A stretch of 64,000 bases of DNA, taken from NCBI GenBank assembly GCA_903931735.1, contig CAIZDL010000062.1:1-64000 (forward strand). The letters run 5' to 3'. A model generated the notes under the pieces. That model saw only the letters and a list, made by a program, of their open reading frames with translations. It did not search any database and was not told the origin of the DNA. Position 1 is the stretch's first letter, and each line of letters starts with the position of its first letter. This document shows, one piece after another, positions 52,024 to 55,241 of the stretch. The stretch comes from an uncultured Rhodospirillales bacterium. GTDB lineage: Bacteria; Pseudomonadota; Alphaproteobacteria; Azospirillales; Azospirillaceae. The position numbers and the translations under genes were made by a program.

Positions 52024-54122
52024 TCGGTGGCCATTTTCTGTCTTTGGCGCCGTTGCTGTCTTGGCCGGTGCTGGCGGTGGCCGCCGGGGTGGCCTTGCTG
52101 GTGGCGGGCTATGGTTTGGTGCGCCGGGCGCGCGGCGCTGCGTGGCGGCTGGCCGCGCTGTTGGTGATTCTGACCGGCCTGCTTAATCCGTCGGTTGGCG
52201 TTGAGCGGCGCGAGGCGGTGAAAGACACTGCGGTGATCGTGCTGGACCAGTCGCCCAGTCAGTCGTTGGGAAGCAGGACCGCACGGGCCACCGCCGCCCT
52301 TGCCGAGTTTCAGCACCGGCTGGAGGGGACGCCGGGGTTGGAGCTGCGTGTGGTGCGGGTGGGGGAAAGCCCGGCGGGCGAGACCCGGTTGCCGGCGGGC
52401 GAGACCCGGTTGCCAGCGGGCGAGACCCGGTTGTTTGAGGCGTTGACCCGGAGTTTCGCCGATGTCCCGAAGCGCCAGCGGGCGGGGGCGATTTTAATCA
52501 CCGACGGGCAGGTTCACGATGTCCCTGTTGATGGGGCGGCGGCAGCGCAGTTCGGCCCGATTCACACGGTGTTGACCGGCGACCACGAGGAGGCCGATCG
52601 GCGCTTGGAGATCATTGCCGCGCCGCAATATGGCTTGGTGGGTAAGCCGGCGACGCTGGTTTTTCGGGTCACCGACCTGCCCCGGCCCCAGAGCGTGGAC
52701 GCTGTGGTGACGGTGCGGGAGGATGGCGGGCCGGCGCGCTCGCTTGCGGTGCCGGTGGGTCAGGAAATTTCGTTGCCGGTTACGCCCGCTCATGGCGGCC
52801 AGACGGTGGTGGAACTGGTGGCCGAGCCAGCCCCCCAAGAACTCACGCTTGTCAACAACCGCGCCGGGGTGGCGATCAACGCGGTGCGCGACCGGTTGAA
52901 GGTGCTGCTGGTTTCGGGCGAGCCTTATGCCGGCGAGCGCATTTGGCGCAATGTGTTGAAGTCCGACCCGGCGGTTGATCTGGTCCATTTCACCATTTTG
53001 CGGCCGCCGGACAAGCAGGATGGGACTCCGATCCGCGAATTGTCGTTGATTCCATTTCCAATCCGCGACCTCTTTGAAGTGAAGCTGGCCGAGTTTGATT
53101 TGGTGATTTTCGATCGATACCGCCAGCGCGGGGTTTTGCCGGTTCGGTATCTCGACAATATCGCCGACTATGTGCGCAAGGGCGGGGCGCTGCTGGAGGT
53201 GGGGGGCGCGGGCTTTGGCGATCTTCAGGGGTTGCGCGGCACGCCGCTCGGCGCCGTGCTTCCGGGGCAGCCGGTGGGGCGGGGCATCAGCCAACCGTTT
53301 CAGCCGGTCGTGACCGAGCTTGGCCGGCGTCATCCGGTCACCGCTGGCCTTACCGGGTCGGGGGCGCCCGGTTGGGGGCGCTGGCTGCGGCAGGCCGATC
53401 TGGCGGTCAACCGGGGCGTGGTGGTGATGTCGGGGGCCTCGGCACGGCCTTTGCTGATCCTCGATCGGGTCGGCGCCGGCCGGGTCGCGCAGTTGGCGTC
53501 CGACCAAATCTGGCTGTGGCAGCGCGGCTATGACGGCGGCGGTCCCCAGGCCGAGTTGCTGCGACGACTGGCCCACTGGTTGATGAAAGAGCCGGAGTTG
53601 GAGGAGGACGAGTTGCATGGCCGGGTGGAGGGCTCTCGGCTGACGGTGGAGCGACACAGCCTCAAGCCCTCGAGCCGGCCGGTTGGTGTCACATTTCCCG
53701 GCGGTGAGACCCGCGAGATTGCCCTGCACGACGATCCCGATGGCGTCGCCCGCGCCGAACTGACCGCTGGTGCGCCCGGCCTTTATCGGTTGGCAGATGG
53801 CGAGCATCAGGCGGTGGTGCTGGTGGGCAGCGCCAACACTGCGGAATTTGCAGACGTTCGCACCACGCCCGAGCGGTTGGCGGGCGTTGCCGCCGCGACC
53901 GGGGGCGGCGTGTTTTGGCTGGCCGACGGCCAGGGCGCCCTGCCCGAGATCCGCCGCCCGAAACCGGGAAGCACCACTGCGGGGCCGGGGTGGCTGGGCC
54001 TTACCGCCAACGGCGCTAGTCTCTTGAGCGGCAAGGAGGAAACGGCCCTCTTGCCAGCGCCATTGTTGTTGGTTTTAGTGCTGGGGGCGCTTGGGGCGGC
54101 GTGGTGGCGCGAGGGCCGTTAG
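52020..54122 (+). CDS. Membrane protein with vWA-like and glutamine-amidotransferase-like domains
   Basis: 700 residues, starting at an ATGA overlap with the DUF4159 gene. Two N-terminal helices lead to a vWA-like region (DTAVIVLDQSPSQSL; AILITDGQVHD), then a large domain with VLLVSGEPYAGERIWRNVL and LVIFDRYRQRG...GGALLEVGGAGFG, similar to amidotransferase-like folds seen in these operons. A C-terminal helix is followed by WWREGR. A 21-bp tandem repeat inserts PAGETRL three times at about residue 118-138. The function is unknown; co-translation with its neighbour implies a shared complex. Confidence 0.78.
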   Translation: MIGGHFLSLAPLLSWPVLAVAAGVALLVAGYGLVRRARGAAWRLAALLVILTGLLNPSVGVERREAVKDTAVIVLDQSPSQSLGSRTARATAALAEFQHRLEGTPGLELRVVRVGESPAGETRLPAGETRLPAGETRLFEALTRSFADVPKRQRAGAILITDGQVHDVPVDGAAAAQFGPIHTVLTGDHEEADRRLEIIAAPQYGLVGKPATLVFRVTDLPRPQSVDAVVTVREDGGPARSLAVPVGQEISLPVTPAHGGQTVVELVAEPAPQELTLVNNRAGVAINAVRDRLKVLLVSGEPYAGERIWRNVLKSDPAVDLVHFTILRPPDKQDGTPIRELSLIPFPIRDLFEVKLAEFDLVIFDRYRQRGVLPVRYLDNIADYVRKGGALLEVGGAGFGDLQGLRGTPLGAVLPGQPVGRGISQPFQPVVTELGRRHPVTAGLTGSGAPGWGRWLRQADLAVNRGVVVMSGASARPLLILDRVGAGRVAQLASDQIWLWQRGYDGGGPQAELLRRLAHWLMKEPELEEDELHGRVEGSRLTVERHSLKPSSRPVGVTFPGGETREIALHDDPDGVARAELTAGAPGLYRLADGEHQAVVLVGSANTAEFADVRTTPERLAGVAAATGGGVFWLADGQGALPEIRRPKPGSTTAGPGWLGLTANGASLLSGKEETALLPAPLLLVLVLGALGAAWWREGR
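52371..52433 (+). repeat. In-frame 3 x 21 bp tandem repeat
   Basis: CCGGCGGGCGAGACCCGGTTG occurs three times, with one change in the last copy, encoding three PAGETRL heptads inside the 700-residue membrane protein. Being in frame, copy number could vary without loss of the protein. Confidence 0.95.
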
Positions 54123-54192
54123 GATAAGGGCGTTGCAACAGCGGCGTGATGCCGCCATACTCGGGCGCTGGCGAGAGAGGACCCAAGGGACA

Positions 54193-54441
54193 ATGCAGGT
54201 GGAAAACAGACTTCTCGACGATCTTGCGAAGGTTGCGGGCGGCGCCCTTGGTGCGCTTAGCGGTCTGCGCGGCGAGGTTGAGGCGCAAATTCGGCAGCAA
54301 ATGGAGCGCGTTCTCAGCCAGATGGATGTGGTGAGCCGCGAGGAATTTGAGGCGATGAGGGAAATGGTCGTCAAGGCGCGGCAAGAACAAGAGGCGATGG
54401 CCGAGCGGTTGGCGGCGGCTGAAGCATGCCTATCGGGTTGA
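54193..54441 (+). CDS. ubiK: UbiK/BMFP-family ubiquinone biosynthesis accessory protein, C-terminus altered by insertion
   Basis: 82 residues from ATG 54193 with AAGGGA upstream. The family motif MQVENRLLDDLAKVAGGALGAL and the long coiled coil EEFEAMREMVVKARQEQEAMAERL are typical. UbiK helps the Ubi complex in aerobic ubiquinone synthesis; it also causes membrane fusion in vitro. The reading frame runs into a small mobile element and ends CLSG. If the element and one target duplicate are removed, the frame continues AEARLAGLTTGKSA and stops, giving 89 residues with a continuous coiled coil. The conserved region is intact, so function may be retained. Confidence 0.88.
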   Translation: MQVENRLLDDLAKVAGGALGALSGLRGEVEAQIRQQMERVLSQMDVVSREEFEAMREMVVKARQEQEAMAERLAAAEACLSG

Positions 54442-54557
54442 CGCATACACCTACCAGATGTAGGTGCGTCTCAGGGGAAATAGCCAACGTTTCCAGCAAA
54501 CCCCCACTCCCAAGCCCACTACCTATTGTGGGTGTATGCGTCAACCCGATAGGCATG
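54425..54557. mobile_element. MITE-like element (133 bp) inserted in the ubiK 3' end
   Basis: Perfect 27-bp terminal inverted repeats (54425-54451 and 54531-54557) enclose 79 bp. The element is flanked by identical 8-bp direct repeats, GGCTGAAG at 54417-54424 and 54558-54565, the expected target site duplication. It encodes no transposase, so it must move with help from a full-size relative elsewhere. Inside the left arm CACCTAC-cagat-GTAGGTG forms a competing hairpin, and CCCAC/GTGGG forms one on the right. Confidence 0.88.
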
Positions 54558-54737
54558 GGCTGAAGCTCGTCTTGCTGGGTTGACCACGGGAAAAAGCGCC
54601 TGATTGTGTTGGCAACGCCAGGCTCGCATGGCCCAGCGCGAAATTCTGTTGCGCCGGATGGTGCCTTCTGGCACCGTCGCGCGGGAGAGCGTTAGTTTGG
54701 GCTTGAACCACAATATATTGGTTTGGGGAGGGTGCGC

Positions 54738-55241
54738 ATGTCGATAGCGGCGCAAGAAACCGCGAAGGCGACACACAATCCGCTCGATATCGTCGAGGAA
54801 ATCGTCGCCGCAAACGAGTGGCCCTTTGACCGCTCCAGCGACGAAGAGATGGTGGTCGAAATCAGCGGCCGTTGGTGCGACTACCGGCTCTATTTCGTCT
54901 GGCAGCAAGACCTGAGCGCGATGCAGTTTTCCTGTCAGTTCGACATGAAGGTTCAGAGCCATCGCCGCTCGGTGGTCAACGACTTGCTGGCCGAGGTCAA
55001 CACCCGAATGTGGCTTGGGCACTTCGATATTTGTGCCGAGGAGCAAACGCCGATGTTCCGCCAGACCACGTTGTTGCGCGGCCCGAACGGGGTCAGCGTC
55101 GAACAACTGGAAGATCTGGTCGAGATCGCGCTTTCCGAGTGCGAGCGGTTTTACCCTGCGTTCCAGTTTGTCATTTGGGGTGGCAAGACGCCGACCGAGG
55201 CGGTTTCGGCGGCGCTGCTCGATACTGTTGGCGAGGCTTGA
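54738..55241 (+). CDS. YbjN domain-containing protein
   Basis: 167 residues from ATG 54738 with GGGAGGG five bases upstream. The YbjN fold (related to type III secretion chaperones) is suggested by MVVEISGRWCDYRLYFVWQQD, VNDLLAEVNTRMWLGHFDI and FYPAFQFVIWGGKTPTEAV. E. coli YbjN influences stress and motility when overexpressed; no molecular function is proven. It commonly precedes proC in alphaproteobacteria and does so here with a 5-bp gap. Confidence 0.88.
   Translation: MSIAAQETAKATHNPLDIVEEIVAANEWPFDRSSDEEMVVEISGRWCDYRLYFVWQQDLSAMQFSCQFDMKVQSHRRSVVNDLLAEVNTRMWLGHFDICAEEQTPMFRQTTLLRGPNGVSVEQLEDLVEIALSECERFYPAFQFVIWGGKTPTEAVSAALLDTVGEA

Follow-up and report, generated by a model that had tools for sequence, protein, structure and literature searches.

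The question raised by the window (the whole 64,000-nt stretch of DNA analyzed here) is whether the perfect palindrome lying across the 3' end of ubiK, a ubiquinone-accessory gene, is a mobile element; and, if so, to what family that element belongs, where else it occurs, and what its arrival has meant for the gene.

Structure of the Element

The mobile element comprises 133 bp (54425-54557) between two copies of GGCTGAAG, with its outermost 27 bp, CATGCCTATCGGGTTGACGCATACACC, constituting perfect inverted repeats (TIRs) whose imperfect arms reach 39 bp at 90% complementarity (Table 1). The 64-kb window contains no other inverted repeat of at least 20 bp with its arms within 300 bp, and the RNA fold of the element exhibits a 30-bp stem at -70.1 kcal/mol, with z = -9.5 against shuffles; from the uniqueness of the repeat and a fold 9.5 s.d. 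below the shuffles, we conclude that the palindrome is not a product of chance. The element is non-coding and lacks a transposase gene, having one 44-codon open frame per orientation, stop-free to the end. The sequence-only reading, which had given 27-bp perfect TIRs, a size of 133 bp, and a flanking 8-bp duplication, proved correct to the base in those facts; and its interpretation of a MITE-like, non-autonomous element is borne out by the lack of a transposase, the target duplication, a second genomic copy, and an empty site in the sister species.

Table 1. Coordinates of the element and of the ubiK features that it affects, as positions in the window.
Feature	Position	Strand	Basis
Present ubiK ORF, 82 aa, with the CLSG-stop end derived from the left end of the element	54193..54441	+	PF04380 (BMFP), residues 3-78
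Left target-site duplication, GGCTGAAG	54417..54424	+	Sequence
Left TIR, 27 bp, perfect; first 40 bp like the right end of IS1595-family ISs	54425..54451	+	
Element core, 79 bp, no transposase; common to the sister MITEs	54452..54530	.	IS interiors: no consistent similarity
Right TIR, 27 bp, perfect	54531..54557	-	
Right target-site duplication, GGCTGAAG	54558..54565	+	Sequence
Former ubiK terminus, now displaced: RLAGLTTGKSA, stop TGA 54601-54603	54566..54603	+	Restored-frame comparison

The Empty Site in ubiK

Four congeneric species (G001-G004) have a ubiK that reaches its own stop without the element, which comparison is the one that the sequence-only reading had proposed as a check. Since YbjN and then proC follow ubiK in the same order in those sisters, at 80-95% protein identity, their unoccupied site is orthologous to the one in the window. 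When the two flanks are fused so as to leave one GGCTGAAG, ubiK regains an 89-aa frame ending in AEARLAGLTTGKSA and a stop, so that the predicted restoration of the frame by excision of the element plus one duplicate is upheld; in the closest sister, G002, the UbiK end LEARLAAAPSAAKSA, likewise followed by a stop, agrees with that restored frame, with G002 terminating in RLAAAPSAAKSA-stop. As judged from these sequence comparisons, the element at ubiK is a true and recent insertion, and the event may be called datable in a relative sense—it is later than the split from the four sisters, and the two genomic copies are identical—but not beyond that.

A Second Copy in a Methyltransferase Gene

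When the genome was searched with the element, as had been suggested, a second copy was found on contig C17, identical at 133 of 133 positions, in the opposite orientation, and flanked on both sides by GTCCGAAC; an exact search of the 3.48-Mb genome for the 24-bp end yields just four occurrences, which number corresponds to two complete elements. The C17 copy sits in the 588-aa ORF of a C5 cytosine methyltransferase (PF00145, TIGR00675; C17:3567-5330, L002 753-2519), where the element plus one duplication (133 + 8 = 141 bp, or 47 codons) is read through in frame as an insert from residue 251 on, MPIGLTHTPT...VCVNPIGMVRT. Because the alignment of this methyltransferase to M.HhaI ends at residue 218 and the stretch RELKMHERLQLLGFP, which we take to be motif IX-like, comes after the insert, the latter would lie in the variable target-recognition region, presumably between motifs VIII and IX. 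An IS1595 end likewise forms the 3' terminus of this ORF, as YEPCLSG and a stop, which CLSG-stop recurs in the clipped UbiK.

An empty site for this copy was sought among 385 genomes of the class, in which no close homologue of the methyltransferase was present at E<=1e-60, and in viral contigs, with the same outcome; distant phage homologues could be aligned only loosely over the variable region, and no clean gap emerged there, so that the ancestral state is here read from the duplication by itself. That the MITE might serve as a protein-modifying insert—adding 47 codons exactly, with one frame open whichever way it is oriented, lengthening the motif VIII-IX region of the methyltransferase and possibly altering its DNA target—we consider improbable. 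Nor is selection for the open frame of the element supported, because the 134-bp relatives in other genomes would shift the frame and mostly carry stops; those relatives add 142 bp and therefore cannot insert in phase.

Assignment to the IS1595 Family

IS1595 is a common family of bacterial transposons. Its ISs usually lie between 8-bp duplications, and an N-terminal zinc domain is present in every group except IS1016 (PMC8101967). The genome under study contains dozens of them, with PF12762/NF033547 transposases, 8-bp duplications, and ends similar to those of the element. A search with the TIR, allowing three mismatches, retrieved about 40 further ends in the genome, located almost without exception near contig termini, as is expected from a repeated IS. 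One abundant IS1595-family IS accounts for 38 exact left ends (CCTGCCTATCCGGTTGACGCAGAC) and 46 exact right ends (CTTGCCTATCCGGTTAACGCAGACACCC); the contigs bearing them run into an IS1595 transposase, the transposase fragments matching one, and pairing of the left and right flanks, among the fetched ends only, recovered eight 8-bp duplications. The flanks and 8-bp targets of this IS are A+T-rich (66% versus 37% for the window), the genome itself being rich in G+C. A separate full-length IS1595 IS of 1156 bp, with the duplication GAAAGAAC, is located on contig C81, and its 341-aa transposase passes PF12762, PF12760, and NF033547.

With respect to the element itself, its TIR differs from the IS1595 ends of this and other genomes at 2-7 of 27 positions, its first 40 bp match the IS1595 end on contig C252 at 85%, and at least three of the IS1595 types present here have TIRs that resemble its own. 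The sequence-only reading had not recognized the TIR as that of a described family, which family can now be named as that of the IS1595 ISs in this genome; as to a full-length IS with the same ends, for which it had proposed a search, the assembly yielded IS1595 ISs with similar ends, but none was found whose TIR is exactly that of the element, the nearest IS ends differing at about 3 of 27 positions. Between the 79-bp core and the IS interiors there was no consistent significant similarity; and the only score above all shuffles, that of L084, proved to come from a degraded MITE relative in G003, for which reason this locus was rejected as an IS source of the core. Since the core shows no consistent likeness to any examined IS interior, descent of the element from a known IS by simple internal deletion is not established; such dissimilarity of cores is common, MITEs and their partner ISs being usually alike at the ends only (PMC3852290). 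A conserved subterminal hairpin in the left end of the MITE and the right ends of the ISs was likewise considered and set aside: although most of these ends can fold in this way, the hairpin has little strength in the relatives (z about -1 to -2).

The abundant IS, for its part, has multiplied to about 40-46 copies within the 3.48-Mb genome and is associated with about 84 contig ends, so that much of the fragmentation of the genome into 291 contigs can be ascribed to it. In the first 360 bp of contig C163 (L035), its partial left end meets an opposite-facing right end after about 245 bp, which arrangement reflects the insertion of one IS copy into another, a rearrangement between two copies, or a joint made in assembly.

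Relatives in Other Genomes and Plasmids

A TIR scan of 85,462 species genomes produced matches in the same-genus MAG bog_933, the alphaproteobacterial MAG nDJH14bin10 (G106), and an Acidiphilium MAG (G107). The sister species G003 contains a 134-bp relative of the element at 78% identity, and G106 contains two relatives of 134 bp, one of which (L079) has the duplication ATTCTTTC. The other (L078 3585-3859; JADFXL010000175.1) directly adjoins the last ~140 bp of an IS1595 IS, where the transposase gene has its 3' end, and the right TIR of that IS is identical to the TIR of the adjoining relative. The Acidiphilium MAG bears a full 1092-bp IS1595 with the duplication GAATAAGG; and in the Tardibacter plasmid pHSL4 a 40-bp match, with the duplication ATATGGAC, adjoins an annotated IS1595 family transposase. 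Five MITE copies align end to end, with the core included. The element had no match in phages, and in plasmids the matches were to IS1595-type ends only.

Two further observations concern the state of these relatives. The copy at G003:C156 (L084, 1501 to about 1645) is a degraded, older one, with a decayed right TIR, and the gene downstream from it we take, from reading its sequence, to be seryl-tRNA synthetase-like. The relative at L078 has no matching 8-bp duplication, which finding suggests an insertion followed by the loss of the remaining IS through deletion.

The evidence for the assignment therefore consists in IS1595-like ends, 8-bp duplications (GGCTGAAG and GTCCGAAC here, ATTCTTTC in the G106 relative), two copies that are identical in sequence but unrelated in site, and the unoccupied ubiK locus of the sister species, in addition to the small size of 133 bp without a transposase gene and the autonomous IS1595 relatives in the same genome; on this basis the element is almost certainly a non-autonomous IS1595-family MITE, and the naming of that family for it is new here. 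A DDE transposase would be supplied in trans by a resident IS1595-family IS or by a lost partner, the exact partner IS being presumably divergent, lost, or unassembled; and through that activity the element would have inserted after codon 78 of ubiK and its other identical copy in phase in the C5 methyltransferase gene. Mobilization by the transposase of another family generating 8-bp duplications, such as IS66 or ISL3, for which the lack in the assembly of an IS with an identical TIR might be invoked, is very unlikely, because both the TIR and the subterminal sequence match IS1595 ends, for as many as 40 bp, within this genome as well as in the sister MAG G106, in which a MITE relative and an IS1595 IS have one TIR in common without a difference.

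Consequences for UbiK and Its Transcript

The insertion occurred after ubiK codon 78, at the same place where the Pfam BMFP match (3-78) ends. Because the TIR contains a TGA in one frame, the last 11 residues of UbiK were lost and replaced by four (CLSG), the present frame stopping four codons into the element, exactly as had been read. The length of UbiK past the end of the BMFP domain varies, with 90-94 aa in the genus and mostly longer proteins in the family. The end of ubiK had been described as rewritten: the end is indeed changed, but the conserved BMFP domain is untouched, the change lying beyond it; and since that domain is whole, UbiK probably still works and the effect is probably mild.

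The same reading had proposed that the element might terminate or process the ubiK transcript. A scan of 54100-54800 revealed neither terminator nor promoter-like sites, there being no U-tract and no G+C-rich hairpin followed by a T run, and a role in termination is not supported; processing of the long hairpin in the transcript is possible. The local arm hairpins that had been predicted can form (-12.5 and -10.3 kcal/mol), but have only a fraction of the stability of the full stem. The sole Rfam match, below threshold and to a miRNA family, was dismissed as a chance hit due to the hairpin.

These data also bear on the possibility that the palindrome is not mobile at all, but instead a resident regulatory or structural sequence—a terminator or an mRNA-stability hairpin—at the 3' end of ubiK, as its position at the end of a gene, its very stable 30-bp RNA stem at -70 kcal/mol, and the local hairpins of its arms might lead one to suppose. 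That origin is refuted: the palindrome is missing from ubiK in all four sister species, an unrelated gene harbors an identical copy, there bordered by another 8-bp duplication, and neither a U-tract nor a terminator-like site accompanies it, so that we assign to such an explanation only a very slight probability. Finally, an assembly artefact joining two repeats, conceivable in a draft genome of 291 contigs with many ending in repeats, has a negligible likelihood, because the 8-bp duplications match on both sides of both copies and the context continues through each one (the ubiK-YbjN-proC synteny in one instance, a single open frame in the methyltransferase in the other), both of which continuities swapped flanks would break.

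Separately from the element, the window contains at about 54640-54680, between ubiK and YbjN, a block (CTGTTGCGC...CCTTCTGGCACCGTC) that is conserved in the sister species and that, as it stands in the window, can pair as GGTGCC-TTCT-GGCACC; this block is possibly a promoter or a regulatory site of YbjN.

Comparison with Known Elements

With the IS1595 ISs, which have ISXO2-like transposases, the element has in common similar TIRs (CMTGCCTATCSGGTTRACGCAKACACC-like), the 8-bp duplication, and the presence of such transposases in its genome, whereas it differs in being 133 bp long and transposase-free, with a core that is not recognizably IS-derived. The IS1595-associated MITE of Haloquadratum walsbyi, of 165 bp with 25-bp inverted repeats, an 8-bp duplication, the partner ISHwa6, and 7 copies (PMC3852290, Table 4), is comparable by description, not by sequence, as a MITE with an 8-bp duplication and an IS1595 partner; that element, however, is archaeal, while the present one has 133 bp, 27-bp repeats, and 2 copies in an alphaproteobacterium. 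MITEPye1 of Paracoccus yeei (PMC11578231), likewise an alphaproteobacterial MITE present in few copies, also possesses TIRs and a long stem-loop RNA, but is associated with the IS1182 family. The Rickettsia palindromic elements, for their part, are palindromes of about 150 bp read in frame within genes (PMC10969869), as is the C17 copy; but those are many and recurrently in frame, a conserved encoded peptide being expected of such inserts, whereas here the C17 copy is in frame and its counterpart in ubiK truncates the gene.

Since in-frame MITE fusions are already known, above all in Rickettsia (PMC10969869), the insert in the methyltransferase is not a new kind of event; and, with an IS1595-type MITE having 25-bp repeats and 8-bp duplications already recorded in Haloquadratum, neither is the kind of element new, which element is, as such, an ordinary and well-documented genome parasite. 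What the locus offers is a clean, fully resolved, recent MITE insertion, for which four sisters preserve the unoccupied site, the two copies are identical and bounded by 8-bp duplications, and the likely partner family has expanded in the same genome; and, by virtue of a TIR with a stop in one frame that is open in the others, such an element can either clip or lengthen the proteins into whose genes it inserts.
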